Assembly: GCF_004341165.1 (NCBI RefSeq)
Contig: NZ_SLZR01000008.1
Span: 1 to 64,000 of the forward strand
Direction of reading: 5' to 3'
Origin: Reinekea marinisedimentorum
Lineage (GTDB): Bacteria; Pseudomonadota; Gammaproteobacteria; Pseudomonadales; Natronospirillaceae
Length of the DNA stretch: 64,000 nt
How positions within the stretch are numbered: the first letter of the stretch is position 1; every line of letters starts with the position of its first letter. The notes below the pieces were generated by a model, which had not been told where the DNA came from, ran no database searches, and saw only the letters and a list, made by a program, of their open reading frames with translations. Below are positions 30,694-60,175 of this stretch, piece by piece. Position numbers and translations under genes: made by a program.

Positions 30694-30722
30694 ATTCTAG
30701 AATTAAAGCCGTGTTAACTCAA
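30694..30722 (-). promoter_or_regulatory. Predicted sigma-70 promoter of the deoCAB operon
   Basis: On the minus strand TTGAGT (30717-30722) is 17 bases from TAGAAT (30694-30699). The -35 hexamer overlaps the last bases of cheX. This gives the deo operon a start separate from cheX. Confidence 0.6.
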
Positions 30723-31183
30723 CGGCTCAGGTTCACTTCTATGTACATTTTACCCTGATCCAGCTCCAGCGGAAGGGTTAGCACCGGACCATTGCCGGGG
30801 TGGTTTATTTCATGGGGCTTGCCGGTGAGGATGGTTGGCCGTGTCAGGTCAAAATCGTATCCGCTGCTGGATAACCGCTGTTTGGCACCTCCGCAGACCA
30901 TGTTGGTGATCTCGCCGGCCAGATCGAGTGCGGAATCGTCCAGTTCGCTGAGCTTCTCGCCCAGCATGCGCTCGTAAACGGCCAGCAATGCCTCCTTTTC
31001 AAAGGTGATCGCCAGGGTGCCCTTGTGGGCCGGGCCGGAAAGCGCAATGAAGCCGGTCACCTCTCCGTTCGCCTGATTGCCTTTTTTTAACGCTGGTTTA
31101 CCCACTCTTGACTCCATATTGGCCATGGTGCGGGTAACTTCCAGCGTGGCTTCCAGAAAGGGGTTAATGATGCCTACATCCAT
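30719..31183 (-). CDS. cheX: CheX-like CheY-phosphatase family protein
   Basis: The open frame runs back to a TTG at 31258, but the CheX family start (MDVGIINPFLEATLEV) is the ATG at 31183, giving 154 residues; no strong ribosome site is seen. The conserved phosphatase helix is present: ALDLAGEITNMVCGGAKQRL, holding the E..N pair that acts on phospho-receivers in CheX/CheC. No cheA, cheY or cheW gene is near, so its target is probably a receiver in the adjacent cluster, such as the products at 34522-35856 or 36891-37670. It is divergent from the degenerate kinase gene at 31298. Confidence 0.85.
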   Translation of the reverse strand: MDVGIINPFLEATLEVTRTMANMESRVGKPALKKGNQANGEVTGFIALSGPAHKGTLAITFEKEALLAVYERMLGEKLSELDDSALDLAGEITNMVCGGAKQRLSSSGYDFDLTRPTILTGKPHEINHPGNGPVLTLPLELDQGKMYIEVNLSR

Positions 31184-31297
31184 AAACAGTTCGAAAAAAG
31201 TAGTTAATGCTAAAGTTAGTTTATATCTGGCAAAATGCCGAGCCAATTCATTAATCAAGATTAAAAAAGAATTCTCAAAGGTTTAAGGAACTTTTCA

Positions 31298-32296
31298 TTG
31301 AAAGAACAGAAGCGAATGAAACAGGTCGTCCTGGTGTTTTTTGTTATCTGGCTGCTGCTCATTGCGGTTGCCGGCTATTCGGTATATCTGGATGCAGGTG
31401 TGGGCTTGCCGGCCGGGGTACTGGTATTGTCAGTGTTATTCGGGCTGAGCGGCGTATGGATGTTCAATACCGGTCAGCAGCAGGTGGTTGAGCTCAATAA
31501 GAGCCATAGCCGCACCAAGCGGCAGCTGCAGGAGTTGCAGCTGAAGATAGACCGCTACGAATACGACGCTAAAAAGAGCAGTGAACTGCGCCGTATAGTA
31601 TTGAACTCTACGCAGGAAAAAGACCACGCCGTGCAGAATATGGCGCGGGCGTTGGATAAAGCCATGGATGAAATTCTGCTGTCTGTGGATGACCTGCAGA
31701 CAGAGCCGGCCGCCATTGTTAAAAGCAAAGCCATGAGCATGAAGCAGTACGCCGCAGATTTGCTGGTACTGGCCAAGCTGGAGCTGAAGTCGGAACTGCC
31801 GGAACCGGTCGAGATTGATTTCAATACCGAGATAGACCGGCTGATGTCTCAGTGGAACAGCATTGCCCGGTCACGGAAAATCAAAATCAAGCTAGATAAC
31901 CCGGAACACCAGATTTCCATGTACACCGATGTGAACTGGGTGGAAAACCTGTTAACCCGTCTGGTGCTGGCCCTGCTGCGTATGAACCGCGATACCCTGC
32001 TGCATATTGGCCTGATCACCTATACCGATGCAGAACTGGGTGATTCACTGCGCCTGGCCTTTTCCATTGAAGGCCGAACGCTTACGGCTAAACAGCTGGC
32101 TCATATCGCTGGCGACTATATCTCGGTGATCGACGAAGGTCAGGAGGTTGGCCCAGGGCTCTCATTTGTTGTTGGCCGCCGTGTTGCACAAATGCTCAAT
32201 GGCAGTTTTGAGGTGACGTCTTCAGAAAACGGGATTGAAGCACTGGTTGTTATTCCCCGTCGGGAAGACATCGAAGAGCAGGACACCTTCAGCTAA
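31298..32296 (+). CDS. Membrane-bound degenerate histidine kinase-like protein
   Basis: TTG 31298 is chosen because AAGGAA precedes it by 7 bases; ATG 31316 is an alternative. The 332-residue product has two N-terminal hydrophobic helices (about residues 8-50), a coiled coil, a dimerisation-like helical pair and a C-terminal GHKL-ATPase-like domain. The expected H-box (HE.R/NP) is missing. The N-box position reads ENLLTRLVLALLRM without the asparagine, and no clear DxGxG is visible; only a GPGLSFVVGRR glycine lid remains. It is therefore probably a catalytically silent scaffold or receptor. Position next to CheX and a GGDEF-EAL gene suggests a regulatory role. Confidence 0.7.
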   Translation: MKEQKRMKQVVLVFFVIWLLLIAVAGYSVYLDAGVGLPAGVLVLSVLFGLSGVWMFNTGQQQVVELNKSHSRTKRQLQELQLKIDRYEYDAKKSSELRRIVLNSTQEKDHAVQNMARALDKAMDEILLSVDDLQTEPAAIVKSKAMSMKQYAADLLVLAKLELKSELPEPVEIDFNTEIDRLMSQWNSIARSRKIKIKLDNPEHQISMYTDVNWVENLLTRLVLALLRMNRDTLLHIGLITYTDAELGDSLRLAFSIEGRTLTAKQLAHIAGDYISVIDEGQEVGPGLSFVVGRRVAQMLNGSFEVTSSENGIEALVVIPRREDIEEQDTFS

Positions 32297-32403
32297 GTTG
32301 TTGAAAAGCGGAGCATAATGCCTCGCTTTGAAATATCGGTTTGTTGTGATTCCATAGGCAGCGTCTACACTCTGGTGTAATAGCAATTTACGTTGAGAGC
32401 ATA

Positions 32404-34503
32404 ATGGAGTTCGATCTGGAGCCTGGTGAACGCCTGATATACGAGCAGTTGCGCCAATCATCGAATATGTACTATTTGGTTCTCGACCGGGAGCTGAAAG
32501 TAAAAGATGTAAGCCCCGGGCTGGTCGCAGCCCTGGGTCGCACATTGTTTGATCTTTACCAGGTGCATATTGCCGACCTGCCTTTAATCCCTTTGACCAC
32601 GGATTATGACGAGCTGGACTGGTCCGACCATCCGCTGCTGACGGAGTTTCTGTCGGCCAATCAATCCGGGCAAACGAGCCTGCTCATTAAAACCCTTGCC
32701 GGCACGCTACTGAACCTTAACGTCGATGTCACCTGCGCCGATGACCAGTTTGTACTGCTGTTTTCTCATCAAAAGGACATCGCGCCATTGCAGGACAGGC
32801 TGCAGCTGTTTGATGAGTTGTTTGCCTCCTGTTCCAACGCCATTGTCATTACCAACGATAAAAACGAAATTCTTCAGGTAAACCCGGCCTTCCATAAGAT
32901 AACCGGATACAGCGAACGAGAAGTTATTGGGAAAACACCCTCGGTTCTAACCTCGGGTGCGCACGGTGGTGAGTTCTACCAGGACATGTGGCAATCGCTG
33001 AAAAAGAAAGACTTCTGGCAGGGGGTGATGATAAACCGGCGTAAATCCGGTGAGCTGTGCTCCGATCATCTGAAGATCCGTGCCGTGCGCGGTGTGGATA
33101 AAAACATTATTTACTACCTGGGTGTTTACAGCGAGGTGGTACTTTCAGAGCAGGTCGAGGCCGATAAACAGCTGTTGACCGAGCTCGATGTGCTTACCGC
33201 ACTGCCGAAGCGCACCTTGCTGATCGACCGTCTGGAACAGGCACTGGCTTACGCGAAGCGGCATGACTATGGTGTTGCCGTGCTCTATATGGACCTTGAT
33301 CATTTCTCCAATGTTAATGATCAGTTCGGTAAAAACTTTGGTGACAGCGTTATTAAAAAGATCGCCGAGCGGTTGCACGATGTCATTCGCCAGGGCGATA
33401 CCCTTTCCCGCACCGGCGGTGATGAGTTTGTACTGGTGCTGCGCGATCTGGCTATGGATTTTGATCTGGAAAAATTTGTAGAGCGTGTCATTAATACAAT
33501 TGAGATGCCGATCTCGATCGATCAGCAGGACGTAGTGGTGACCACCAGTATTGGTATTTCCCGCTTCCCGGAAGACGATGCCTCGGCAGAAAAGCTGATA
33601 CGCCATGCCAACCACTCTATGGGCGTTGCCAAATCTTATGGCCGCGCCAGTTTTGTGCTGCATTCCGGTCAGCTCGAAGAGGAACGGAGCAAGAACCTGG
33701 TTGCCCGACAGCAGGCGTTGGATGCGTTAGAGCAGGGCCATTACGAACTGTACGTTCAGCCCCAGTTCGATCTGGAAAACCGCGCTATCTATGGTGCTGA
33801 GTTTCTGCTGCGCTGGAACTCACCGGATTTTGGCCTGGTAACGCCGGATAAGTTTCTGCCGAACTTAAAAGACAAGAACCTGTTGCTGAAGATCGATGAA
33901 TGGGTTGTCGGCCAGGCTATGGATATTATTGAAGATCATTTCTCCGATGATCTTTTCGAAAAGGTCAGCTTTGGTATCAACTTAACGCCGGTGAGCCTGC
34001 AGAGTGAGCGCTTTCATAAATGGCTGGAGGCGAAGCTGCTAACGGTGAGCCCACGCGTTACCCGGCGTCTGGAATTTGAAATTCTGGAAACCGATGCACT
34101 GCAGAACTTAGACTCGGTAAGAAGCCTGATATTCCGGCTGGATAAATTTAACGTCAGGTTTTCGCTCGATGATTTCGGCACCGGCTACAGTTCGTTGAGT
34201 ATCTTCAACCAGCTGCCGGTACACAGCGTAAAAATTGATAGGACCTTTGTGAATCAGATGGTCGATGATTATCGTAATCTGAGTCTGATTAAGGCCATCT
34301 GTGAAATGTCGAAGATCTTTAACCGCAACATCATTGCCGAAGGTGTGGAAAACAAAGAGCAGGCGCATTTACTGCTGAATATCGGCTGCTCAATCGTGCA
34401 GGGCTTTGGCTTGCATCGCCCCGGCCCGGCAGAGAAGGTGGCCAATAACCTGAAGGTTATGGACATCCCCTCTGACTGGACTCTGAATAAACAGGGCCAG
34501 TGA
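32404..34503 (+). CDS. PAS-GGDEF-EAL c-di-GMP signalling protein
   Basis: The 699-residue soluble product has a PAS-like N-terminal region, a second PAS domain (about residues 140-245, with NAIVITNDKNEILQVNPAF) and a GGDEF domain. The active-site motif GGDEF is intact and an inhibitory-site RQGD lies five residues before it. An EAL domain follows. Its signature reads EFL instead of EAL, but the other expected metal and catalytic residues are present: N in INLTP, LDDFGTGYSSL, K in VKIDRTF, AEGVEN and QGFGLHRP. It may both make and degrade c-di-GMP, with the balance set by PAS input. It ends 18 bases before the convergent receiver/HD gene. Confidence 0.92.
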   Translation: MEFDLEPGERLIYEQLRQSSNMYYLVLDRELKVKDVSPGLVAALGRTLFDLYQVHIADLPLIPLTTDYDELDWSDHPLLTEFLSANQSGQTSLLIKTLAGTLLNLNVDVTCADDQFVLLFSHQKDIAPLQDRLQLFDELFASCSNAIVITNDKNEILQVNPAFHKITGYSEREVIGKTPSVLTSGAHGGEFYQDMWQSLKKKDFWQGVMINRRKSGELCSDHLKIRAVRGVDKNIIYYLGVYSEVVLSEQVEADKQLLTELDVLTALPKRTLLIDRLEQALAYAKRHDYGVAVLYMDLDHFSNVNDQFGKNFGDSVIKKIAERLHDVIRQGDTLSRTGGDEFVLVLRDLAMDFDLEKFVERVINTIEMPISIDQQDVVVTTSIGISRFPEDDASAEKLIRHANHSMGVAKSYGRASFVLHSGQLEEERSKNLVARQQALDALEQGHYELYVQPQFDLENRAIYGAEFLLRWNSPDFGLVTPDKFLPNLKDKNLLLKIDEWVVGQAMDIIEDHFSDDLFEKVSFGINLTPVSLQSERFHKWLEAKLLTVSPRVTRRLEFEILETDALQNLDSVRSLIFRLDKFNVRFSLDDFGTGYSSLSIFNQLPVHSVKIDRTFVNQMVDDYRNLSLIKAICEMSKIFNRNIIAEGVENKEQAHLLLNIGCSIVQGFGLHRPGPAEKVANNLKVMDIPSDWTLNKQGQ

Positions 34504-34521
34504 ACCAACCATCCCTGGTGG

Positions 34522-35856
34522 CTAGCTTGTTTGTTCCAAGGCGTCTTCTTCCTGCTGGTCGTTTTCAACATAGAGCACGTATTTGTGTTGTTCTTTTGAG
34601 CCGATGTATTCCAGCTTGCTGATGATCTTTTCGGTTAGCACCGCACCGCGGGTCAGCATGATGATGCCACGCAGGTTGTACAGATCGCGCGAGAGCACCA
34701 TGCCGGGTTGGGCTTTTCCTAGTGCTACCATGGTTTCGTATTTGCCCTTCTTGGCGAACTCCTGTTTCACGCACTGCAGGAACGGCTCGACCAGTTCCGG
34801 GTCGACCTCCTTCCCGGCGATTGACCGTAAATACTTTTCAGCATCGTCATCGGAGTGATGACTGCCATCCGCAAGCCCGTTGCGAAACATAAAGAAGTGC
34901 ATGGCGACACCGATAATCCGTGCACCAATGGGAATGTCTTTGCCCGGCAGTTTATGCGGGAAGCCCTTGCCATCGTATTGCTCACAATGGAACTTAATCA
35001 GGTTGGATACATTGCTCAGGTGATCGAGACTCGCCATCAGCGAGTAGCCCTGCAACGGGTAAGACTTGTACTCGTTCAGGTCTGGCCCGCTTAAATTGAA
35101 GTAGGGTTTTACCAGGTTGGCGTCGGGGATGCGTATCTTGCCAAGCTCGTGCAGTTTTGCGGCCCGGTAGATGTTTTCCTGCTCCTGTTCATCAAGCTTC
35201 AGGTGTTTGGCCAGTGCCAGTGCGGTATCGGCAATATCGTTAAGGTGGTCCTTGGGGGCAACCGTTCTCAGTTGCAGTACCTGGGCGATCACATCAATAA
35301 AAACGCTGTAGCTGGATTTCAATTCCTGAAAACTTAAGTCGAGCATGTCTGCGGTTTGCTGCAGCTCCTGGGTTCTTGCGGCAACCTTTGCCTCCAGGTT
35401 TTTGTTTGCCTCTGCCAGTTGAATGGCCTGCTTCTTGGTCACATCGGCAAGGTGATCCCGTTCTTTGCGCACTTTAACAAACGAGGCTGCCTCTCGTATT
35501 TTGCTGAGCAGAACGTCATCGTCCCACGGCTTTTTCAGAAACTGGTGAACACCGCCATCATTGAGGGCCTGAATCATAGAGTTGAAATCAGAGTAGCCAG
35601 ACATGATAAAGCGAAACGAGTGCGGGCAAATCTCTCTGGCTTTGGTCATGAAAACATCGCCCATCATACCGGGCATTCTCATGTCGGAAATGATGATGTC
35701 GCAAGGTTGCTTGTTCAGAAACTCTATGGCCTTCTGACCGCTGGTGGCAAAGGCGCACTGGTAGCTTTCAAAGGTCATCAGTCGCTTCAGCGTTTTAAGA
35801 ATATTGACCTCGTCATCTACAAATAGAATACGAATGTCGTTGCTGGTTTCTTCCAT
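34522..35856 (-). CDS. Receiver plus degenerate HD-GYP domain response regulator
   Basis: Start ATG 35856 is chosen over TTG 35859; AGGTG lies just before it. The 444-residue product has a complete receiver domain (acceptor aspartate about residue 58 in IISDMRMPGM, lysine in KKPWDDD), a coiled coil (about 128-180), and an HD-GYP-like domain. The metal ligands of active HD-GYP enzymes are changed: HD reads HELGK, the GYP motif reads DGKGFP, HHE reads HCE, and the aspartate after ARI is a methionine (GVAMHFF). A C-terminal small domain follows. It is unlikely to hydrolyse c-di-GMP and may bind it or a partner. It is 4 bases downstream of the HDOD gene stop. Confidence 0.87.
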   Translation of the reverse strand: MEETSNDIRILFVDDEVNILKTLKRLMTFESYQCAFATSGQKAIEFLNKQPCDIIISDMRMPGMMGDVFMTKAREICPHSFRFIMSGYSDFNSMIQALNDGGVHQFLKKPWDDDVLLSKIREAASFVKVRKERDHLADVTKKQAIQLAEANKNLEAKVAARTQELQQTADMLDLSFQELKSSYSVFIDVIAQVLQLRTVAPKDHLNDIADTALALAKHLKLDEQEQENIYRAAKLHELGKIRIPDANLVKPYFNLSGPDLNEYKSYPLQGYSLMASLDHLSNVSNLIKFHCEQYDGKGFPHKLPGKDIPIGARIIGVAMHFFMFRNGLADGSHHSDDDAEKYLRSIAGKEVDPELVEPFLQCVKQEFAKKGKYETMVALGKAQPGMVLSRDLYNLRGIIMLTRGAVLTEKIISKLEYIGSKEQHKYVLYVENDQQEEDALEQTS

Positions 35857-35860
35857 CAAG

Positions 35861-36637
35861 TCACCTGATCAGTTTAATCAAATCGTTGCGTTCATCGCGA
35901 ATACCAAAAGTGATATCCGCTAACTCACTTGGCTTAAGGTTCAGTACCTGTAACTCAACGTCCAGGTTGTTTAGTTTTTTGAAGACGGCTTCTTTTTTCC
36001 CCTGAAGGACGATTGCCATGTTAAAGGCAAGCTTCAGTGCGCTGGTTTCTTTGCAGTGACGGCTTTGCTGATAGAGCTCAACAATGGCGTTGCTGATACG
36101 CTCAGGAAAGTTCATTTTGCTGAAAAGAATAGCACTGGCATCGTGCAGCAGGTTTACCGTCAGGAACTTTTCCAGACCGGGCTCATAGTTAATGAGTACC
36201 GGCAACAGGTGAAGCAGACCGGTTAAATAGCCGTTGTCTTCCGGCAAGCCCATCTTGCCGTAAAGTTCGCGGCAAATCAGGGCGGTTGTCAGGCTGTGCT
36301 TTACATAGCCGGCTAACTTTTCGTTACCGGCCGTGCCCATAACAACGCTGGTAAAAATAAGCGACTTCAGCTTTTTATAGCCCAGTAGCACGATGGTTTC
36401 TTCGATGTTTTCAATGGTTCTGGGAAAACCGAAGAACGGGCTGTTACAAATAAGCAGTAGCTTTGCACTGAGCAACGGCTCGGTTGCGATCAGGGCTTTC
36501 AGTGCGGCAGTATTCGGAGTGGGTTTTTCAATCTCCTGAATAATCGCGCTGGTGTTCTGGCTGATGATTTGTGCCTGGTCGAGTTTCTCTAAACTGCTTA
36601 GCCATTCAGCGCTTATACGACTTTTTTCAGCAGACAT
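35861..36637 (-). CDS. HDOD domain protein
   Basis: The 258-residue product shows the HDOD fold (about residues 20-215). It includes the LLSAKLLLICNSPFFGFPRTIENIEETIVLLGYK type block, shortened here, and the degenerate HD position LLHLLPVL. HDOD domains are non-catalytic relatives of HD domains that bind partners in signalling and motility regulation. It overlaps the upstream 93-codon gene by 25 bases and is followed within 4 bases by the receiver/HD-GYP gene, so the three are coupled. AAGGA touches its ATG. Confidence 0.87.
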   Translation of the reverse strand: MSAEKSRISAEWLSSLEKLDQAQIISQNTSAIIQEIEKPTPNTAALKALIATEPLLSAKLLLICNSPFFGFPRTIENIEETIVLLGYKKLKSLIFTSVVMGTAGNEKLAGYVKHSLTTALICRELYGKMGLPEDNGYLTGLLHLLPVLINYEPGLEKFLTVNLLHDASAILFSKMNFPERISNAIVELYQQSRHCKETSALKLAFNMAIVLQGKKEAVFKKLNNLDVELQVLNLKPSELADITFGIRDERNDLIKLIR

Positions 36638-36894
36638 TCCTTTAGTTCCCGCATTAGTTTACTGGCATGAGGCTCAAATAGAGTTTCAATAAATTTTCTT
36701 TGCTCATCAAGATTGGCTGAGTTGTCTGGTGCGTTGGCCTCATTAACCTCAACCTGCTGAATGTTTTGCTTTGTCAGTGCCCTGATTACAGCGCCGGTTA
36801 ATGCAATCCCGGCAGGTAGCAGGGTCGCGCCGGAAGCGCTGACAACAGCCTCCCGGGTCGTCATGCCTTCTGCTTTGCTGATATCAATTTTCAT
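36613..36894 (-). CDS. Small stand-alone HD-GYP-associated-like domain protein
   Basis: The 93-residue product has a conserved-looking core (ATLLPAGIALTGAVIRALTK then QNIQQVEV) which resembles the C-terminal tail of the neighbouring receiver/HD protein (MLTRGAVLTEKIISKLEYIG). Its ATG overlaps the receiver-PAS gene stop by 4 bases, and its end overlaps the HDOD start by 25 bases. I infer a regulatory domain that in other proteins is fused to HD-GYP or HDOD domains. It has no catalytic motif. Coupling on both sides supports it being a real gene. Confidence 0.75.
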   Translation of the reverse strand: MKIDISKAEGMTTREAVVSASGATLLPAGIALTGAVIRALTKQNIQQVEVNEANAPDNSANLDEQRKFIETLFEPHASKLMRELKECLLKKVV

Positions 36895-37670
36895 ACGACT
36901 GCCTGAATGGTGTAAAGCTGGCCAATATCCGTATTGTTGAGTGAAAGGTGTGTGGCACTGGCCTTGAACTCTTTTTCTCCGGTTATAAATTCTATCGTTC
37001 TGCCCGGCTCAAAGTGTTCGATCATGTGATGCATCGGCTCGGGAATGACCCGTTTATAGGGCCTGCCTTCAACGGCGCTGGAAAAATCAAAGTCTGTGCA
37101 GAACTGCTGGTTTGCCAGGACTACCATGCCGTCATGACTGATGCAGACAATGCCGATGGGCAGCTGTTCAACAATTTTTTCATAGCGCTGCAGCGACAGT
37201 ATGTTCATGTTGAGCACGCGGGTCTTGCGTTCGATATTTTCTTCCAGGTTAGCGTTAGCGGTAATCAGCTTGTCTTTTAGCTGCTGGTTCTCGGTGATCA
37301 GATCATAGGCCTGCATGCCATCCTCAACGCAGCTTAACAGTTCGTCATCATCCCAGGGCTTGAGCAGAAAGCGGAATATCTGCCCGGTGTTGACGGCCGC
37401 ACGGATCGATTCCAGATCGGTGTAACCGGTGATCAGAATTCTGCGTATGTTGGGGTAAGCGGCTGAAACGCGGGCGAACAACTCCGAGCCGGTCATCTTC
37501 GGCATGCGCTGGTCGGATATAACAACGCTGATATCCGGGTTTGCCTCAATGCAATCGAGAGCCTCCTGACCATTGCTGGCGGTTAGAACATCCATATTGT
37601 GCGTGTAAAGCAGGCGCTTAATGCTATTGGCGATGCTTTTTTCATCATCGACAACCAGTACTTTTGACAT
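36891..37670 (-). CDS. Receiver-PAS response regulator without DNA-binding domain
   Basis: The 259-residue product starts with an intact receiver (VVDDEKSIANS, acceptor aspartate in VVISDQRMPKM, lysine in LLKPWDDDELL). A short coiled coil and a PAS domain (about residues 165-250, with LPIGIVCISHDGMVVLANQQF) follow. There is no output enzyme or helix-turn-helix, so output must be through protein contacts. It is first in the run REC-PAS, small domain, HDOD, REC-HD. The KPWDDD motif is shared with the other receiver, suggesting they are related. Confidence 0.87.
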   Translation of the reverse strand: MSKVLVVDDEKSIANSIKRLLYTHNMDVLTASNGQEALDCIEANPDISVVISDQRMPKMTGSELFARVSAAYPNIRRILITGYTDLESIRAAVNTGQIFRFLLKPWDDDELLSCVEDGMQAYDLITENQQLKDKLITANANLEENIERKTRVLNMNILSLQRYEKIVEQLPIGIVCISHDGMVVLANQQFCTDFDFSSAVEGRPYKRVIPEPMHHMIEHFEPGRTIEFITGEKEFKASATHLSLNNTDIGQLYTIQAVV

Positions 37671-37835
37671 TTATTTGGTCCGTAAAACTCCGTATTTTGA
37701 TTATAGAAGCAGGGTGGTGATCCGCAAGCAGACCGCGCTTCACGAGCTGCAGCTAATTTGCTGCTGCAATAATTGCGCAGCCGGTGCAATTGTTACCTAT
37801 ATTAAAATGATGGGTGTTAATGTTGTGGAGTCCTT

Positions 37836-38939
37836 ATGGCTACGGCCTTTAAATGGAGCGCTGCATTCCTTACCGGGCAGAGTACGGTAGATGAGCAGCA
37901 TTACCAGCTGATTGACATTATTAATCAGTTTGGCAAAGAGTTTGAACTGGAAGAGATTGACCGCGCAGCCGTCGATGGGCTGTACCTGGATTTACTGGCC
38001 TATACCGAATATCACTTCGAGGAAGAAGAAGCGTTAATGCAGCAATGCCGGTTGGACGAGCGGCACATTGCCGGGCACAAGGAGGCGCACAAACGCTTTT
38101 TGGACGAGGTGCAATTAATTTATTCAGGCATGTCCTTTAACGACCGCAGTCGGGCGCATTCCTACCTGAAGTTTCTGATTCACTGGCTGGCCTATCATAT
38201 TCTTGGCAAAGACAAAGAAATGTCGGCGCAGATTGACGACATCAGAAACGGAGCAACGCCGGAAGCGGCCTACCTGAAGCACAAGCCGAATGACGACACC
38301 AAGGAGCCATTGGTTGAAGCACTGGATGGCCTGCTGGAGCAGCTTTCAAAACGCAACGCAGAGCTGCGGCAGCTCAACGCCGAACTGGAAGATAAGGTTC
38401 AGCAACGAACTCAGCAGCTGCTTGCTGCTAATCAAAAGTTAGAGGTTCTGTCGCTGACTGATATTCTGACCTCGCTGCCCAACCGGCGCCATGCCATGAA
38501 AAGCCTGCAGCTGCTATGGGAAGAGTCCGAACAGACTGGCAGCCCACTGAGTGCGCTGATGATTGATGCCGATAACTTTAAAACCATTAACGATACTTAC
38601 GGCCACGATTCCGGTGATAAGGTGCTGATAAAGCTGGCGACCATGCTTCGCGATTCGTTCCGCAATGATGATCAGGTCTGTCGGCTGGGCGGCGATGAAT
38701 TCTTTGTCATCTGCCCAAAGACGCCGCTGGACGATGCCGTGGAGCTGGCCGAAAAGGTGCGTCAGCAGGTTGCCGCCATGGTGGTTTCGGTTCCGGGTGG
38801 CCAATGGCAGGGCAGCATCAGCGTGGGTGTGGCCGCGAAAGATGCCGCCATGGCCAGCAAGGAAGAGTTGATACAGAAGGCTGATCAGGGCGCTATAGCC
38901 GCCAAGCAGGCTGGCAAGAACAATGTTCAGGCGGTATAG
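37836..38939 (+). CDS. Bacteriohemerythrin-GGDEF diguanylate cyclase
   Basis: The 367-residue product has an N-terminal hemerythrin domain (residues 1-130) with a full diiron set: DEQH, HFEEEE (HxxxE), HIAGH (HxxxH) and HILGKD (HxxxxD). A coiled coil (about 165-205) then leads to a GGDEF domain with intact GGDEF and an inhibitory-site RNDD five residues earlier. It is predicted to make c-di-GMP in response to oxygen or redox state of the diiron centre. TGGAG precedes the ATG. It lies between the receiver cluster and two histidine kinases. Confidence 0.93.
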   Translation: MATAFKWSAAFLTGQSTVDEQHYQLIDIINQFGKEFELEEIDRAAVDGLYLDLLAYTEYHFEEEEALMQQCRLDERHIAGHKEAHKRFLDEVQLIYSGMSFNDRSRAHSYLKFLIHWLAYHILGKDKEMSAQIDDIRNGATPEAAYLKHKPNDDTKEPLVEALDGLLEQLSKRNAELRQLNAELEDKVQQRTQQLLAANQKLEVLSLTDILTSLPNRRHAMKSLQLLWEESEQTGSPLSALMIDADNFKTINDTYGHDSGDKVLIKLATMLRDSFRNDDQVCRLGGDEFFVICPKTPLDDAVELAEKVRQQVAAMVVSVPGGQWQGSISVGVAAKDAAMASKEELIQKADQGAIAAKQAGKNNVQAV

Positions 38940-39000
38940 CCGGGTGGCAAAAAACAGCTACTTTGCTAATTTTAAATGAAAGTATTCAGAGGTTGTTTTC

Positions 39001-40584
39001 TTGCACTGCTATTTGACCCTAAATGATGAAACTCAAACAGCTTCTGTTCTTGATGCCCACGGAGAGCCTGGCGCGTTACTGGGTGAAACACTCAGTTTCA
39101 GTGACGCCAGTCAGTTGCTTTCTGTTGCTGAAAAAACCGGTTACTTTGTTTTCAAGGGCTTGAGGTTCAGCGTTAAGCCGCTGCTCTCTAAAGCCGGCGC
39201 TTCCTGCTATCTGGTTTTTCAGGAATCTGATATCGATTATGAAAAGACCCGCAGCCTGACCCGGGCGCTGGAAGTTCTTCGCAACATCTCTCAGGATCTG
39301 GATCAGTGCAAAACCCTCGATGAAATCTACTATTGCTCGGTGAATGGGGTCTTGCATTACCTGGATTTCGACCGGGCGGCAATTTTTCTGTTAAACCCCG
39401 ATGGGGAATCCATCGTAGGAACCTGGGGTACGGATTGCAATGGTGCCATTCGCGATGAGCACTCCCTGGTGGAGCGGCTGCAGGATTCGCCCTGGTATCA
39501 GGGCGCGGTTAATGCAGCCGGCAAGGTGTATGTTCAGCAGAACGCCAGCCTGTTCGAAAATCATGAGGTGGTCGGTCATGGCTGGCACGCTGTTGCTGCC
39601 ATTCGTTACAGCGAAGACACCGTTGGTTGGCTGGTGGCCGATAACCTAATTCATAGCCGGCATTTTTCGCCCAACGACCAAACCCTGATGCTGCTGTTCA
39701 GCCAGACCATCGGTCAGTGGATTGCTCGCTTTAAGGCCGAACAAAACCTGAAAGAGTTGAACGAAAGCCTTGAACAAAAGGTAGAACAAAAAACCTCTGA
39801 GCTACAGGATATTATTCACAGCCTGGCCACCACGCGGGAAAATCTGGTCAGTACCGAAAAGGCGCGTACGCTGGCGAACTTTACTGCCGGTATCGCGCAT
39901 GAGATCAATAATCCGATTGGCTTTATTCGCAGCAACCTGAGCTTTATCGGTAAGGTCAGCGGTAAGGTGGTTGAGTCGGTCAGTCAATTGGATTCTGCGT
40001 TGGTCGGTCATTCCATTGAACACTTAAAAGAAGTGGAAGAGGTGATTGAAGAGTCGGTGCAGGGGCTCGACCGGGTGACCCATATCATCAGCCTGTTGCA
40101 GCCGTTAAATAATCTTTCCGATGAGCAGCACCAGTCGTTCGATGTGATTCAGTCTATCGATTTTATTATTTTAAGTCTGGAGAAAAACGCCGACTGTATT
40201 TCGGTTATGCAGCCGGAAAACCCGATCACCGTTGAATTGCCCATGCAGGTTTTCACACTGGCGCTGGAGAACGTACTCACCAATGCGCTCGAGGCCGTTC
40301 AGGATAATCCGGGACCGGCCATCACCGTCAGAGTGATCGAACAGGATGACCATATTGCGGTTGAGGTCACCGATAACGGCATTGGTATTTCTGCAGCCAA
40401 TTTGAATTCTATTTTTGATCCGTTCTTTACCACCAAAGCGGTTGGCGATGGCGTTGGCCTTGGCCTGTCGCTGAGCGAAAATCTGGTGAAGATGATTAAC
40501 GGCTCTATCAAAGTTACATCAACTGAAGGAAAGGGAACCTCTATGACGTTGGTATTTCCAAGAGGGATTAAACTGAATGGCTAA
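39001..40584 (+). CDS. Soluble GAF-domain sensor histidine kinase
   Basis: TTG 39001 is chosen because AGAGG lies 8 bases upstream; no in-frame ATG fits. The 527-residue product has an N-terminal region of unknown type, a GAF domain (about residues 95-245), and a coiled coil. The phosphoacceptor motif is GIAHEINNPIGFI. The ATPase domain has N-box ALENVLTNALEAVQD, DNGIGIS, and GDGVGLGLSLSENL. No membrane segment is visible. It overlaps the following kinase gene by 8 bases. It probably phosphorylates one or both receivers encoded at 34522-37670. Confidence 0.9.
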   Translation: MHCYLTLNDETQTASVLDAHGEPGALLGETLSFSDASQLLSVAEKTGYFVFKGLRFSVKPLLSKAGASCYLVFQESDIDYEKTRSLTRALEVLRNISQDLDQCKTLDEIYYCSVNGVLHYLDFDRAAIFLLNPDGESIVGTWGTDCNGAIRDEHSLVERLQDSPWYQGAVNAAGKVYVQQNASLFENHEVVGHGWHAVAAIRYSEDTVGWLVADNLIHSRHFSPNDQTLMLLFSQTIGQWIARFKAEQNLKELNESLEQKVEQKTSELQDIIHSLATTRENLVSTEKARTLANFTAGIAHEINNPIGFIRSNLSFIGKVSGKVVESVSQLDSALVGHSIEHLKEVEEVIEESVQGLDRVTHIISLLQPLNNLSDEQHQSFDVIQSIDFIILSLEKNADCISVMQPENPITVELPMQVFTLALENVLTNALEAVQDNPGPAITVRVIEQDDHIAVEVTDNGIGISAANLNSIFDPFFTTKAVGDGVGLGLSLSENLVKMINGSIKVTSTEGKGTSMTLVFPRGIKLNG

Positions 40585-41764
40585 ATTTGTGGTGGTGAGC
40601 TCATCTCTTGGATGCTCAGAAGACAAACTAAACGAAGGCTGGCAGCTTAAAACCGCTGATGACAGTCAGCAGCTGCCAGCACTGGTGGAAGATGCGCAGC
40701 TGTGTGTCGTAGACAGCAACAGCGCCGGCAATACTGAATCTAAAAGCAAGATGTTTGCTCTATTGGCTGAAAAAAACATCCACAGCCTGGTGGTTGTTCG
40801 TGACCCGGCAGACTATCCGTTGCTTAAGCCCTTTATCTCGGAAAGGCTGGAGGCCTATCCTGCTGAATTGCTTGACCAGCTATACGGCCGGGTTAGCAGT
40901 CTCTGCACGGCGTTATCCGCTGAAGAGCAGCTTACCGAGATGCAGAATCAGCTGGTGCGCTCCGAAAAAATGGCCGCGCTCGGGCAACTTGCTGCAGGCG
41001 TTGCGCATGAAATTAATAACCCGCTGGGCTTTATTTCTTCCAACATGAACTTGCTGGGCAGGTACTCCTCCATGATCAGAGATGAGATGACGTCTCTGGA
41101 AGAGTTTCTTGCCAAGGAAGAAACCGGTATGGCGGTGCTGCAATACAATATCTGGAAGTCTGAATCCAAATTCACTCAGTGCATGGAAGATGTCGACGAG
41201 GTTATCGAGGAATCCAAAGATGGCCTAGTGCGTATGCGCGAGATCGTCAGAGACCTGAAGGAATACACCCATATCGGCAACCAGTCGTTTGAAGCAACCG
41301 ATATAAACAAGCTGTTGAATTCGACCGTCAACCTGTTGCGCAACGAAATAAAGTACAAAGCCAATGTGAATTTCGATCTGGAAGAGGTTGGGGTGATCGA
41401 TGCCATTCCATCGCAGCTGAGTCAGGTATTTGTGAATATTATTATGAATGCCTGTCAGGCCATCGAAGATTTTGGGGATCTGACCATTGCCACCGAAGCG
41501 TCTGGTGACAGCGTTGAAATTTCAATTAAAGATACCGGCACCGGCATCGAAAAAGAACAGCTGGAAAAGGTATTCGAACCCTTCTTTACCACCAAGCCGG
41601 TTGGCAAGGGCACCGGTATCGGGCTGGCGATTACCCGTTCTATCGTCGAGCGTCATGCCGGTTCAATTCGGGTGTACAGCATGGTTGGTGAAGGCACCAC
41701 CTTCGTGGTTCGCTTGCCCATCCATCAACAGCAGACAGATGAAGCAAGCGTAGAGTTCGAATGA
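40577..41764 (+). CDS. Soluble histidine kinase with a pseudo-receiver-like N-terminus
   Basis: The 395-residue product overlaps the upstream kinase by 8 bases (ATGGCTAA). The first 110 residues look like a degenerate receiver: a beta strand KFVVVSS, an Asp-containing strand LCVVDSNSAG and a third strand SLVVVRDP, but without the acidic pair or conserved lysine. Then come the phosphoacceptor GVAHEINNPLGFIS, N-box VFVNIIMNACQAIED, DTGTGIE and GTGIGLAITRSI. It closely resembles the partner kinase. Its stop codon abuts the end of the convergent M16 protease gene with no gap. Confidence 0.87.
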   Translation: MAKFVVVSSSLGCSEDKLNEGWQLKTADDSQQLPALVEDAQLCVVDSNSAGNTESKSKMFALLAEKNIHSLVVVRDPADYPLLKPFISERLEAYPAELLDQLYGRVSSLCTALSAEEQLTEMQNQLVRSEKMAALGQLAAGVAHEINNPLGFISSNMNLLGRYSSMIRDEMTSLEEFLAKEETGMAVLQYNIWKSESKFTQCMEDVDEVIEESKDGLVRMREIVRDLKEYTHIGNQSFEATDINKLLNSTVNLLRNEIKYKANVNFDLEEVGVIDAIPSQLSQVFVNIIMNACQAIEDFGDLTIATEASGDSVEISIKDTGTGIEKEQLEKVFEPFFTTKPVGKGTGIGLAITRSIVERHAGSIRVYSMVGEGTTFVVRLPIHQQQTDEASVEFE

Positions 41765-54312: not shown

Positions 54313-54474
54313 TCTACCCGGTGTTTTTTCAGCGCAGTTGACCAATAGAATTCGGCAGATATTTGCCAATCTTCTATAGTAAGTGAACGGAATCAGAAGC
54401 ATGAAGAGATTATTCCATCCTGCAGTACTTCAAAGCTGATGCTTATACCTTTGCCAGGAGGCCCGACGAGCATT

Positions 54475-57400
54475 GTGAAACTACTTTTCAGGTCATTAAA
54501 GTACGTACTGTTTATTCTGTTCTGTGCATTTGCAGCGCTGAATGCCTGGGCGGAAGCCGGCATTATTGAGCAACTGATTATCGCCTACCGCATAGACAGT
54601 GCTCCGGTTCAGTACCGCGGGGCTTCCGGTGAGCCGGAAGGGGTGTTGATCGACTACTGGCGCGCATGGGCCTTGGAGGCGGGTATTGATCTGTCGTTTG
54701 TTGGCGGCACCAATGAACAGACTCAGCAGTGGCTGCAACAGGGCCGGGTCGATCTGATCGCCGGGCTGTTTGCTAATGACCGGCGTTCGGACCTGTTCGA
54801 TTTTTCAGCCCCGGTTGTGTATGGCCAGTATTTTCTGTTTTTTAACCCGGCGGTTCATACGGTTCGCTCGGCCGAAGAGATAGCCGAACTGCCGGTTGGT
54901 GTTGTCGATGCAAGCTATCACCACGACTGGCTGCTGGAAAACTACCCCGCTACCGAGATTCACACTTACAGCGATTATGAGCACCTGTTTGCTGCCTACG
55001 GCAACAACGAGGTGACCTCCTTCATCACTCAGGCTTCGTATCTCGGTGAGTACCTGAACGGGAATAACCTAACCCTGTCGCTCGATGTGCTGCCGGAAGC
55101 GCTCTATTCGCGGCCTTATCGGGCAGCGGTGAGAAAGGGCAATACGCTGCTTCTGGAATTGCTCAATGACGGCATTGAGAATTTATCCGCCAGAAACAGG
55201 GCGGAGATCAGTCCGCAGTGGAATAAATTTATCTGGGCCGGCGTTGAACAGCAAACCAGTGCTGTCGATCTGCAACTGACCGAACAGGAGCAGACATGGC
55301 TGGCTGAACACCCTGTGGTTGAGATCGCGGTCGATGGCAACTGGCCGCCTGTCGATTTTACCGACGCTGCTGGCCAGCAAACCGGTATTCTTGGCGACTA
55401 CCTGAATCTGCTGGAAAAACGCACCGGCATCGATTTTGTGCCAGTGCGTTATGGCAGCTTTAACGAGATGGTCACCAAGGTTCAGCAGGGTGTGAATAAA
55501 GTGGGCGCCACCATCGTTAAAACGGAAGAGCGGTCTAAAAACCTCTGGTTCACATCCCCCTACTTTGGCGCGGTTAAGGTACTGGTCAGTAATATTGAAG
55601 GTGAGCATTTTACTTCCTTTGACCAGCTGGCCGGCAAAACGCTGGCCATCGAAGACGGCTACTATCTGATCGATGAGCTGCGTGCCGACTACCCGGACGT
55701 TATTCTGAAAACCTATCCTGCAACGGCCGATGCGCTCAAGGCATTGTCATTCAGTCAGGTGGATGCCTATGTTGGCAATCAGGCCGTGGTGGCCTGGCTG
55801 AGTCAGGATTTACAGCTGTCTAACCTGCTGGTAACCGGAGACCCGGGCATCGATGTTTCGTTGCAGCGTTTTGCGGTATACCGGGACGATGACTGGCAAC
55901 CGCTGGTATCTGTGATCAATAAAGCCATGGCCTCTATTACCACACAGGAACGGCGGCAGATTTTAAGCCGATGGGTTAATAACGCGGATCAGTTTGCCCG
56001 CAGTGCGCCGCTGGTGTTAAGCCCGGCGGAGATGGACTGGCTGAATGAGCACCCGGTTTGGCGTATCGGTGCCGATCCGTCATTGCCACCGCTGGAGTTT
56101 CTCGATAAACAGGGTGATCTCTCTGGTCTGTCTGCTGAAGTGCTGAAGTTAATTCAGTCCGATATCGGCGTTGATATTGAAGTCGTCTCTGATCAAAGCC
56201 GCGCCGAATCGTTGCGGGCATTGCGCAGTCAGCGGGTGGATATCTTACCGCTGGCCAGCTCGAATACTGTGGATATCGTTGATATGCACTTCACCAAGCC
56301 CTACCTGATCAGCCCTTATATGATCATGGTTGAGGATGAAACCAATTACGTTGCCAGTATTAAAGACCTGGAAGGCTTTACTGTCGGTGTCATTCAGGAT
56401 TACTCCATTCAGTACCTGCTGCAGGAAGACTTTCCCGATTTGAACGTGGTGGCCTTTAAAACGGCAGAGGCGGCGCTGAACAGTTTGAGCCGCAATGAGA
56501 TCGGCGCCTATATTGGTGAGTTGAATTCTTCCACCTGGAGTTTAAAAGAGCTGGGTATCCGCAACGTTAAAATTGCCGCTCAGACCGATTATGTTTTCGA
56601 GAAATCCATTGCGGTCCGGAAAGACTGGTCAGAGCTGGTGCCCATACTAAACCGCGCCATTGATCGCATTAGCGAGGCTCAGCTGGCGCGTATTCAGAGC
56701 CAGTGGTTTGCGGTGAAGGTTGAACAGCAGGTTGATACCGCGCGAATTTGGCTGGCGGTGGTGGTCACCTGCCTGATATTGCTGCCTATTCTGATCGTCA
56801 GCCTGTACTGGAACAGAAGGCTTACGCAGGCAAAAAGATCGCTGGCAGAGAGTCAGTCCAGCCTTACGGAAGCCAAGCAGGCCGCGGAGCAGGCTAATCA
56901 GTTCAAGAGTCAGTTCCTGGCCAATATGTCACACGAAATCCGTACCCCGATGAATGCCATCGTCGGTATGACGCACCTGCTGCAATCGACCGAACTGGAC
57001 GAACAGCAAAAGGATTACGCCGGCAAGATTACCCGCGCTTCTATCTCGCTGCTGTCGATCATCAACGACATTCTGGATTTCTCCAAGATTGAAGCCGGCA
57101 AGCTGGATATAGAAACCGCCGAATTTGAGTTGAATGACCTGGTGCTGAGCTTAACCAATCTGTTTGCGCTGAAGGCGGAAGAAAAGGGCATTGAGGTGCT
57201 GTTTGATGTCGACAGCAATATTCCGCAGCGACTGGTGGGTGACGCGCTGCGCATCGAACAGGTGATGATCAACCTGATTCAGAATGCAATTAAATTTACC
57301 GAGAAAGGCCAGGTTATTGTGCGTCTCCGCCTGCTGCGTCAGCAGAGTGCGGTCAGTGAGGTTCAGTTTTCGGTGATTGATACCGGCATGGGCATAGAGC

Positions 57401-59073
57401 CACAGCAATTGCAGCGGCTGTTTCAGCCCTTTACCCAGGCCGACGCCAGCACCACGCGTGTGCACGGTGGTACCGGGCTGGGGCTGAGCATCTGCCGGCA
57501 GCTGGTCAGCCTGATGGGCGGTGAGCTGACGGCCTCCAGTATGCTGAATTACGGCAGCACCTTTACCTTCTCTGTTAATTTATCAACAGCGGAAAACCAG
57601 CAGACCAAAGCCAATATGCTGGTCGGCGAGGCGCTGAAAGGGATGCGCGTGCTGGTGGTTGATGATAACGACGCGGCCCGTGAAATTAATTCCGAGCTGC
57701 TGGTTGCCTTTGGCTTTGAGGTCGATTGTATCGAAAGCGGTTATCAGGCTTTGGAGCTGCTGTCTGAGCAAAACAGTCAGACTCAAAAACCTTACCGGCT
57801 GATCCTGATGGATTGGAAAATGCCCGGTATGGACGGTGTCTCGGCAGCGGCAAAGATCAAAGCCATGTCGCTGGCTGTGATGCCTGCCATTATTCTGGTA
57901 ACCGCCTATGGCCGGGAATACTTCCAGAACCAGCCATCCTCCGGCAGTGTCGATGCCTTTCTGATTAAACCGCTCAACAGCTCGCTGCTGTTTGATTGCA
58001 TCATGAAGTTATTCCATCAGCAGAATATGGCTCCGGAACAACGCCAGCCAGAACCGGCGATGAAGCTGAAAGGCCGGGTATTACTGGTCGAAGACCACTC
58101 CATCAATATGGAGGTTGCAGAAGCCATGCTCACGCAGCTGGGGCTGAAAGTTGCCACTGCCACCAACGGCCAGGAAGCGTTGAAAAAGCTGGCAATGGAG
58201 AAATTTGATCTGGTGATGATGGATATCCAGATGCCGGTGATGGATGGTTTTACCGCAACCCAAACACTGCGCAAAATGGAAGAGTTTCAGCAGCTGCCAA
58301 TTATTGCCATGACCGCCCACGCCATGAAGGAGGACCGGCAGCGTTGTCTGGATGCAGGCATGAATGATCACCTGGCTAAACCGATTGACCCGGCACGACT
58401 GCAGGAGGTGCTCAGCCACTGGCTGGAGCGGGCACCGGTGCCATCCCCCGCTGATATGAAGTCGGATAAGCGGCAAAAAGACAGCAAAGCTGTTGATGGC
58501 CTGGATGAGGCCTGGGGCGTGGTGCGGGTCGGAAATAACCGGGAACTTTATTCCAGACTGGTTGCAGAGTTCTTTGTAGTGCATCAAAATGACCTGTTTG
58601 AGGTCAAGCATGCGCTGGATCAAGGCGAAACCGACACCGCTGAACGTATGGTTCATACCCTCTGTGGTGTTGCCGGAAATATCGGTGCCTTTGCTTTGAG
58701 CGACGCAGCTGGTGAGTTGTGCGCCCAAATTAAGCGTGATGCAGATACCCTCAGCAGCCACGGTTGGCGGCAGTTCAGTAAAGAATTTCAGCGTTTATTT
58801 GAAGCGTTGGCGACCAGCCAGTACAGCAAGGTGATTGTTCAGAAAGAGGTGGATCGTCTTCAGCCTAAGCCCAGAGTCGAGGGGCAGCCGCCGAAATCTG
58901 CAATTGAATCTTTATTGCAGGCGCTTAACAGCGGCAACCCGGATGCCCGCAGCTATGTTGCTGAGCTGGAGGGTTATTTGCCCAGACACCAGTATGAGAA
59001 ACTGAGTGCAGAGATACAGAAATTCGAGTTTGAAGATGCTGTAAAAACATTGACGGAAAGTGTACGGCAGTAA
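54475..59073 (+). CDS. BvgS-like hybrid histidine kinase with three periplasmic binding domains
   Basis: The frame opens at ATG 54439, but GTG 54475 with AGGAGG upstream leads into a proper signal peptide ([15 protein letters not shown]...NAWA), giving 1532 residues. Three bacterial solute-binding family 3 (Venus flytrap) domains lie in tandem (about 25-265, 268-510 and 514-750), then a transmembrane helix (about 756-778), a coiled coil, phosphoacceptor His820 in [12 protein letters not shown], an ATPase domain ([15 protein letters not shown]), a receiver with Asp1113, a second receiver with Asp1250, and an Hpt domain with His1394. BvgS usually has two flytrap domains. The phosphoryl group can pass to the HD-GYP regulator encoded next. 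Ligands are unknown. Confidence 0.93.
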
Positions 59074-59089
59074 ATGAGAGGCCAGGGAG

Positions 59090-60175
59090 ATGTCGGAAGA
59101 GAAAGAAAAGCTGCTCATCGTTGATGACGAGGTGTTTTATATCGATATCCTCGTCGATCTGCTGGCCAAAAAATATACCGTTTCAGTGGCCAAGAATGGC
59201 CAGCAGGCGCTGGACCGGATTGAAAACGGATATTGTCCAGACCTCGTTCTGCTTGATGTATTAATGCCGGATATGAATGGCTACGAAGTTTGTCAGTTGC
59301 TGAAAATGCATGAAAGCACGCAGGATACGCCGGTTATTTTTCTGACCGTTAAGAGTGATGTTGAATCTGAAATAAACGGTTTTGAGATCGGCGCTGCAGA
59401 TTACATCTCCAAACCGTTCAGCATGCCTATTGTGAAGGCCCGTGTTGAAACCCATCTGGCGCTGGCGCGTACCCGAAAACGCCTCGAATACGAAAAATCA
59501 TTGCTGGAAGTTAAGATCAGAGAGCGCACCCAAGAGATTTCCCGCACGCAGGATATCGCCATGTATTGCATGTCTACCGTGGTTGAGGCTCGCGATAACG
59601 AAACCGGCGCACATATCCGCCGTACCCAGCACTATATAAAAGCGTTGGCCGATCGCCTGCGCAAGCACCCCGAATTTGCCGAGACCTTAACGCCCGACTA
59701 CATCGACATGCTCTATAAGTCGGCGCCGTTGCACGATATTGGTAAGGTTGCTGTACCCGATGCCATTCTGCTGAAGCCCGGTAAGCTCACACCAAAAGAG
59801 TGGGAGGAAATGAAAAAACACACCACCTACGGGCTGCAGGCACTGGAGCGAACAGAAGTGGTGTATGGTTCTTCCAGCTTTCTGAAGATAGCCAAAGAGA
59901 TTGTGTATTCGCACCACGAACGCTGGGATGGCACCGGTTATCCTGAAGGCTTGTTTGGTAAAAAAATTCCGCTTTCAGCACGGTTGATGGCGCTGGCCGA
60001 CTGTTACGATGCACTGATTTCCCGCCGTGCCTACAAAGAGCCGTTCAGCCATGAAGAGGCCCGCCGAATTGTTATAGAGGGTCGCGGTACGCACTTTGAC
60101 CCCTACATTGTTGATGCCTTCATTCAGCTCGAATCGGCATTTGTCAGTATTGCGAATCAGTTTGTTGATGAGTGA
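59090..60175 (+). CDS. HD-GYP response regulator, c-di-GMP phosphodiesterase
   Basis: The 361-residue product has a receiver (VDDEVFYID, acceptor aspartate in VLLDVLMPDM, lysine in ISKPF), a coiled coil and a canonical HD-GYP domain. It keeps ARDNETGAHIRR, HDIGKVAVP, the histidine in MKKHTTYG, HHERWDGTGYP and ALADCYDAL, i.e. all metal ligands seen in active enzymes. It is 16 bases downstream of the hybrid kinase and probably is its output: phosphorylation would control c-di-GMP breakdown. It ends 3 bases from the convergent MFS gene. Confidence 0.94.
   Translation: MSEEKEKLLIVDDEVFYIDILVDLLAKKYTVSVAKNGQQALDRIENGYCPDLVLLDVLMPDMNGYEVCQLLKMHESTQDTPVIFLTVKSDVESEINGFEIGAADYISKPFSMPIVKARVETHLALARTRKRLEYEKSLLEVKIRERTQEISRTQDIAMYCMSTVVEARDNETGAHIRRTQHYIKALADRLRKHPEFAETLTPDYIDMLYKSAPLHDIGKVAVPDAILLKPGKLTPKEWEEMKKHTTYGLQALERTEVVYGSSSFLKIAKEIVYSHHERWDGTGYPEGLFGKKIPLSARLMALADCYDALISRRAYKEPFSHEEARRIVIEGRGTHFDPYIVDAFIQLESAFVSIANQFVDE

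Follow-up and report, generated by a model that had tools for sequence, protein, structure and literature searches.

A putative multi-input c-di-GMP array around a degenerate HD-GYP regulator in Reinekea marinisedimentorum

How much of a run of neighbouring signalling genes belongs to one system is the question raised by a locus in Reinekea marinisedimentorum. The window analysed here is a stretch of 64,000 nt, and all coordinates are positions within it. Between 30719 and 41764 it carries ten open reading frames (ORFs) for signal transduction proteins, which the first-pass annotation treated as a single ten-gene system. The coordinates and domain calls given there were confirmed with Pfam and NCBIfam, and the reported lack of cheA and cheW was borne out by a Pfam scan of the ten genes. 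The single system was not: eight of the genes (32404-41764) make up the island proper, which has been inserted between ptrA and the gene of a pseudokinase. This island represents a recurrent array of beta- and gammaproteobacteria whose genes co-occur beyond chance. We lean slightly towards the view that it would be a multi-input cyclic di-GMP (c-di-GMP) array of the NosK/NosR and Hno type, in which kinases would signal to receivers and a NosR-family regulator would act by contact on a GGDEF-EAL enzyme.

In the ORF layout, a 165-bp divergent intergenic region (37671..37835) separates the island's two operons. On the minus strand, a REC-PAS response regulator (36891..37670; recognised by Pfam, motifs and a reciprocal search) is followed head to tail by a 93-residue protein (36613..36894), an HDOD protein (35861..36637; PF08668, 87.2 bits, cut-off 22.9) and a NosR-family response regulator (34522..35859) composed of a receiver, a degenerate HD-GYP domain and a tail domain, with gaps of -4, -25 and 1 bp. 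On the plus strand, a hemerythrin-GGDEF protein of the Bhr-DGC type (37836..38939; TIGR02481, 89.3 bits, cut-off 51.75) precedes two soluble histidine kinases, the GAF-like HK1 (39001..40584; PF01590, 24.5 bits, cut-off 22.4, and HATPase_c) and the NosK-like HK2 (40577..41764; Pfam). Here the gaps are 61 and -8 bp, and that between HK2 and ptrA is 0, so the description of several of these genes as overlapping or nearly abutting holds. The eighth gene encodes a PAS-GGDEF-EAL enzyme (32404..34503, plus strand) and converges on the NosR gene. On the Kyte-Doolittle scale none of the eight proteins exceeds 1.6 in any window of 19 residues, whereas the pseudokinase does so in 28. Together with a kinase and NosR, the minus-strand order places the window within the recurrent array, which we define by a REC-PAS gene with HDOD next after it on the same strand.

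Both kinases have intact HEINNP boxes, and the receivers of NosR (Asp59) and REC-PAS (Asp53) keep the acceptor aspartate and the KPW motif. No DNA-binding or enzyme domain was found in REC-PAS. The GGDEF domains of the PAS-GGDEF-EAL and hemerythrin-GGDEF proteins are intact with an I-site, which reads RxxD in the former; its EAL domain reads EFL instead of EAL, and the other catalytic motifs are present. The hemerythrin-GGDEF protein, one of two hemerythrin matches in the genome, has the GGDEF motif and all seven positions which, like the other motif residues called ligands here, we take to be metal-binding (in this case iron), and on these grounds it is assigned to the Bhr-DGC type. HK2 (395 residues) has no recognised sensor domain. 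Its first ~110 residues (40577-40910) align with full receivers of its orthologues at three relative loci (L023, L024, L026), but both the window protein and that of L022 have lost the acidic pair and the lysine. This N-terminus looks like a decayed receiver, at the position of the ~130 unrecognised residues of NosK; perhaps a phosphorelay step has been lost in this lineage.

A search for NosR (E <=1e-60) in 38 genomes, the window's own included, was positive in 12 and gave 11 relative loci. The set HK2-HK1 / RecPAS-small-HDOD-NosR is present in G004, G005, G006 and G015, the loci of G004 and G006 being near-copies, and in G008 one kinase accompanies the same four-gene operon. HDOD occupies the same position in 5 of the 11 loci (L023-L027). 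An orthologue of the window's GGDEF-EAL gene lies convergent beside NosR in G005, with the window gene as best match (527 bits versus 366 for the next). The hemerythrin-GGDEF slot holds a DUF6901 protein (PF21842) in G005, G015 and G008.

The array also recurs at greater distance. A profile from an alignment of six NosR proteins was scanned against 84,980 species, each represented by a single genome, and yielded at least 549 confirmed loci, of which the best 80 were analysed, selected by NosR (REC-HD-GYP) similarity alone. Genes were counted with home-made profile hidden Markov models (HMMs) on stop-to-stop frames, grown on the same loci from window and relative seeds. The counts take in the entire fetched stretch, not array members alone, and the HMMs for CheX, FIST, HKdegN and DUF6901 rest on 2 to 6 hits, so that divergent members can be missed. 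Kinase genes occur at 76 of the 80 loci, HDOD at 47, REC-PAS at 46 and both of the latter at 43; at 38, REC-PAS and then HDOD are consecutive on one strand. Further counts are 43 for single REC genes, 42 for GGDEF-EAL (a raw count, without base rate), 22 for the small protein, 15 for hemerythrin, 3 for DUF6901 and 2 for FIST. Among the 55 loci of at least 18 kb, 31 have REC-PAS and HDOD. Base rates were calculated for HDOD and hemerythrin at 29 of the 80 loci, with rounded sizes: HDOD lies near NosR at 19 versus 1.58 expected, and hemerythrin at 7 versus 0.52, enrichments whose statistical significance is overstated since the genomes are related. In the reciprocal direction, a REC-PAS profile was matched, often via the receiver alone, in 34 of 274 genomes of the class, a tally that counts the window's own; 29 further loci were obtained, with REC-PAS in 17 and HDOD within 1.5 kb in 12 of these. 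This search disfavours an artefact of query choice. Scattered homologues, which the first-pass annotation had named as one outcome that would refute its reading, did not appear for the core, in which kinase(s) and two receivers recur together with HDOD and the degenerate HD-GYP protein.

The array is centred on a regulator that passes the NCBIfam NosR model NF053512 (436.7 bits, cut-off 400, residues 11-431 of 445). It keeps two of the six HD-GYP metal ligands and so lacks the full set taken to mark an active phosphodiesterase. At the relative loci ten of the 11 NosR proteins likewise keep two, and the eleventh keeps one; 83 of 89 proteins of NosR architecture are without the last aspartate. 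As controls, four other HD-GYP proteins of the same genome, which has more of them, were checked, and all four keep six of six. Alternatively, NosR might have kept the ability to make or break a nucleotide, or might bind c-di-GMP in the role of a receptor, in which case its output would be effector binding and not enzyme regulation. The structure model of NosR (predicted local distance difference test, pLDDT, 91.1) does retain the HD-GYP fold with high confidence; the nearest solved fold is PA4781 (4r8z), c-di-GMP-bound DvhD is among the nearest solved structures, and the GYP-like motif is kept as GFP. Four of the six ligands have been lost, however, with the same losses in relatives, and we regard this alternative as unlikely.

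Elsewhere in the window (54439-60175), a gene of hybrid kinase type (1544 residues, with kinase and receiver matches) is followed by one for a REC-HD-GYP protein that has all six metal ligands. This protein (control L003) is apparently an active counterpart of the degenerate NosR.

The 93-residue protein is a stand-alone homologue of the NosR C-terminal tail domain. With a profile built from stand-alone ORFs only, hhalign matched it to the NosR tail at 97-98% probability, versus less than 4% for four control domains, which shows that a second copy of the tail domain is encoded in the same operon. Its structure model has a pLDDT of 77.4, and Foldseek gave no PDB match to it at E <=0.001.

Parts of this arrangement have published relatives. 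In the three-gene NosR-NosP-NosK operon of Burkholderia, NosK phosphorylates a degenerate NosR, and NosK is portrayed as a soluble HEINN kinase with ~130 residues lacking a recognised domain and with no known sensor domain (PMC12570481). The window resembles it in pairing a soluble HEINN kinase without known sensor with a degenerate HD-GYP regulator of the NosR family. Unlike that operon, it has two kinases and its genome yielded no NosP (FIST); beyond it, the window adds REC-PAS, HDOD, the tail-domain protein, GGDEF-EAL and hemerythrin-GGDEF. In the Hno network of Shewanella oneidensis, the two kinases HnoK and HnoS converge on HnoB, HnoC and HnoD, and HnoD, a degenerate HD-GYP protein, acts by direct contact to suppress the phosphodiesterase HnoB (PMC6335343); the nitric oxide (NO) sensor is the H-NOX protein HnoX (PMC8846402). 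Common to both systems are two kinases and a group of regulators that includes a degenerate HD-GYP protein; action by contact is a feature of Hno. Hno differs in having a transcription-factor output, whereas the window has REC-PAS and HDOD, and its GGDEF-EAL enzyme carries PAS instead of REC. The earlier suggestion that the pseudo-enzyme works by binding and not catalysis fits the lost ligands of NosR and these HnoD and NosR precedents.

Similarly, the Bhr-DGC of Vibrio cholerae has an N-terminal hemerythrin and a C-terminal GGDEF domain, and its reduced form is ~ten times as active as the oxidised one (PMC9388753). The cyclase of the window shares this architecture; unlike Bhr-DGC, it is encoded in an array with kinases. 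In B. pseudomallei an HDOD gene adjoins the c-di-GMP phosphodiesterase gene cdpA, and mutants of both affect motility; the HDOD protein there is larger (residue 358 is named), and the portion of the paper concerned mentions no kinase (PMC9040570). NosR/NosK, Hno and Bhr-DGC are already known; the combined array as a whole was not found in full-text searches of open-licence literature. The first-pass annotation knew of no description of the combination, which needs qualifying, NosR-NosK and the Shewanella Hno network being close published relatives.

How these parts might work together can be proposed from motifs, gene order and precedent. HK1 and HK2 would pass phosphate to the receivers of NosR and REC-PAS, with HK1 reading a GAF-type signal and HK2, which lacks a recognised sensor, reading an associated protein. 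Phospho-NosR would leave c-di-GMP uncut and would instead alter the activity of the convergent PAS-GGDEF-EAL enzyme by contact, with the tail-domain and HDOD proteins as possible competing or bridging partners. The hemerythrin-GGDEF protein would raise c-di-GMP as oxygen falls, as published for the Vibrio enzyme, and the output would be a choice between motile and sessile life. We prefer the GGDEF-EAL enzyme as the target of NosR because, the hemerythrin cyclase apart, no other enzyme of c-di-GMP turnover in the island has its motifs intact, and because it is orthologous in G005 and GGDEF-EAL genes recur among the best 80 loci. The array provides a short list of candidate NosR targets or partners: GGDEF-EAL, HDOD, REC-PAS and the tail-domain protein.

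Several points weigh against this proposal. Gene neighbourhood is the only ground for the proposed target of NosR, the contact, phosphotransfer and enzyme steps are predictions, and the published NosR system is itself without a known output target in the description cited above (PMC12570481). The NosR family is not uniformly degenerate, since the full set of six ligands is present in 5 of the 89 proteins. At six of the 11 relative loci NosR and one or more kinases occur with no REC-PAS of this type, and 37 of the best 80 loci are without the REC-PAS and HDOD pair (25 of the 80 being shorter than 18 kb). The nearest relative, G002, whose genome is smaller, retains NosR, HK1 and HK2 alone of the eight genes at its locus (L022). 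No REC-PAS, small protein, HDOD, GGDEF-EAL or hemerythrin gene is seen at this locus, the rest of G002 not having been searched, and these parts are therefore dispensable there. Finally, the placement of hemerythrin on a cyclase is the window's own variant, because other arrays mostly put it on a kinase.

On a wider scale, we tentatively propose a widespread, as yet undescribed array of beta- and gammaproteobacteria. Its hub would be NosR, degenerate in most cases, together with a REC-PAS/HDOD pair, and it would be combined with exchanged sensors and a phosphorylation-controlled scaffold. The sensors would be FIST for NO, hemerythrin for oxygen or redox state on a kinase or cyclase, the Cys-rich DUF6901, and GAF. 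The scaffold would be made up of the degenerate HD-GYP protein, HDOD and the loose tail-domain protein, the HDOD/HD-GYP pair acting like pseudo-enzyme halves. Such an array would put NO-linked and oxygen-linked sensors onto one shared hub.

A hemerythrin-histidine-kinase fusion is found at 14 of the 15 hemerythrin-bearing loci among the best 80 (L044, L050, L052, L065, L067, L075, L078, L080, L096, L099, L103, L105, L106 and L117), and also at L144, and the fusion kinases lie near NosR or REC-PAS genes; at L043 the hemerythrin is unfused and distant. The oxygen or redox input suggested by the first-pass annotation fits these fusions and the intact hemerythrin of the window. When mapped onto a quick-method tree with 92 NosR-type proteins, hemerythrin presence requires 7 changes, at least 6 of them forced by starred branches, versus a shuffled mean of 15.0; hemerythrin has therefore been gained or lost several times, in whichever direction. 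The characterised hemerythrin sensors listed in the portion of the survey consulted are methyl-accepting chemotaxis proteins, diguanylate cyclases, HD-GYP proteins and P-type ATPases, with kinase fusions not among them (PMC9388753). The hemerythrin-histidine kinases thus emerge as a sensor class without a characterised member in that list.

DUF6901 proteins sit in or near the sensor slot at L025 (6653-7300), L026 (6834-7520), L027 (6747-7514), L038, L053 and L057. They share the invariant cysteine pattern C..CPL...CP plus a later C, which makes DUF6901 a candidate for an unrecognised redox or metal sensor. As the missing sensor of the window it was rejected: the one homologue found in the genome sits on another contig, behind a gene that resembles, by eye, an ABC-type ATPase.

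The case for an eight-gene unit comes from the two remaining genes, those for CheX (30719..31258, minus strand; PF13690, 79.2 bits, cut-off 27), a CheY-P phosphatase type, and its divergent partner, the pseudokinase (31298..32296, plus strand). CheX was searched in the same 38 genomes (E <=1e-8) and found in nine: the window's own, G001, G002, G004, G005, G006, G008, G010 and G013. In the four congeners G001, G004, G005 and G006 the order is deoA-deoC-CheX, divergent pseudokinase, ptrA, with no island between (in G001 the pseudokinase and ptrA are 67 bases apart), and the islands of G004, G005 and G006 are at another site, without CheX or pseudokinase there. In G002, the fifth CheX-bearing congener, and in the window, the island, reduced in G002, lies between pseudokinase and ptrA. 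Since four congeners keep both genes there without the island, and islands elsewhere lack them, the deo-ptrA locus is where CheX and the pseudokinase reside, and the two are bystanders independent of the island.

One could still argue for a single ten-gene system in which CheX dephosphorylates both receivers and the pseudokinase participates, as all ten genes are neighbours in the window and G002 also has the pair beside NosR and kinases. In addition, Glu116 and Asn119 of CheX are invariant in 8 of 8 sequences, and the NosR-bearing congeners G002, G004, G005 and G006 all carry CheX somewhere, so that action in trans is possible. Against this stand the islandless pairs and pairless islands just described, the presence of CheX in G001 with no NosR match at E <=1e-60, and the absence of CheX from the best 80 loci (0 of 80, by a home-made HMM from few hits). 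We give such a system a small chance. CheX as the enzyme that resets the set, as had been supposed, is not supported, tied as it is to deoC; since both residues are kept, it may still act on any receiver of the cell. In G003 neither NosR (E <=1e-60) nor CheX (E <=1e-8) was found.

A slim chance is left to a nitric oxide pathway, with HK2 as true NosK and an unrecognised haem protein in place of NosP. HK2 agrees in its length, solubility, HEINN motif and lack of a known sensor domain with NosK as described, the NosR model is passed, and two related arrays contain FIST: at L044 and L099, FIST, kinase, hemerythrin-kinase and the REC-PAS/HDOD/NosR set stand in one row. The genome of the window (62 contigs, 99.95% estimated completeness), however, gave 0 FIST (PF08495) matches at E 0.001, and its array carries hemerythrin instead. 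A NosP elsewhere in this genome was rejected on the same ground. FIST as the usual sensor of the array was likewise rejected, with 2 of 91 loci positive (tblastn, four FIST queries); a FIST gene is present somewhere in 35 of 60 genomes (those of 50 of the best 80 loci and 10 relatives). A chance cluster of common signalling genes has a negligible probability: the genome does have many REC, HDOD and GGDEF-EAL genes, but the enrichment of HDOD and hemerythrin near NosR, although measured in related genomes, the REC-PAS and HDOD order, and the HDOD neighbours of REC-PAS in the reciprocal search speak against it.

The divergent CheX/pseudokinase pair adjoins deoC in five of six congeners (including L131, L132, L133 and L134). 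In G008, G010 and G013, CheX is found in other surroundings, without pseudokinase or deoC. The call of a degenerate kinase proved sound: HATPase_c scores 13.7 bits, under the Pfam cut-off of 26.4, the H-box histidine is not conserved, and the N-box asparagine is replaced by an invariant Arg221, losses common to 6 of 6 orthologues. From its hydropathy the protein looks membrane-anchored. TTG is the first codon of the CheX ORF, and the start of 6 of 7 aligned relatives falls no more than 5 residues from Met26; the true start may thus lie near 31183.

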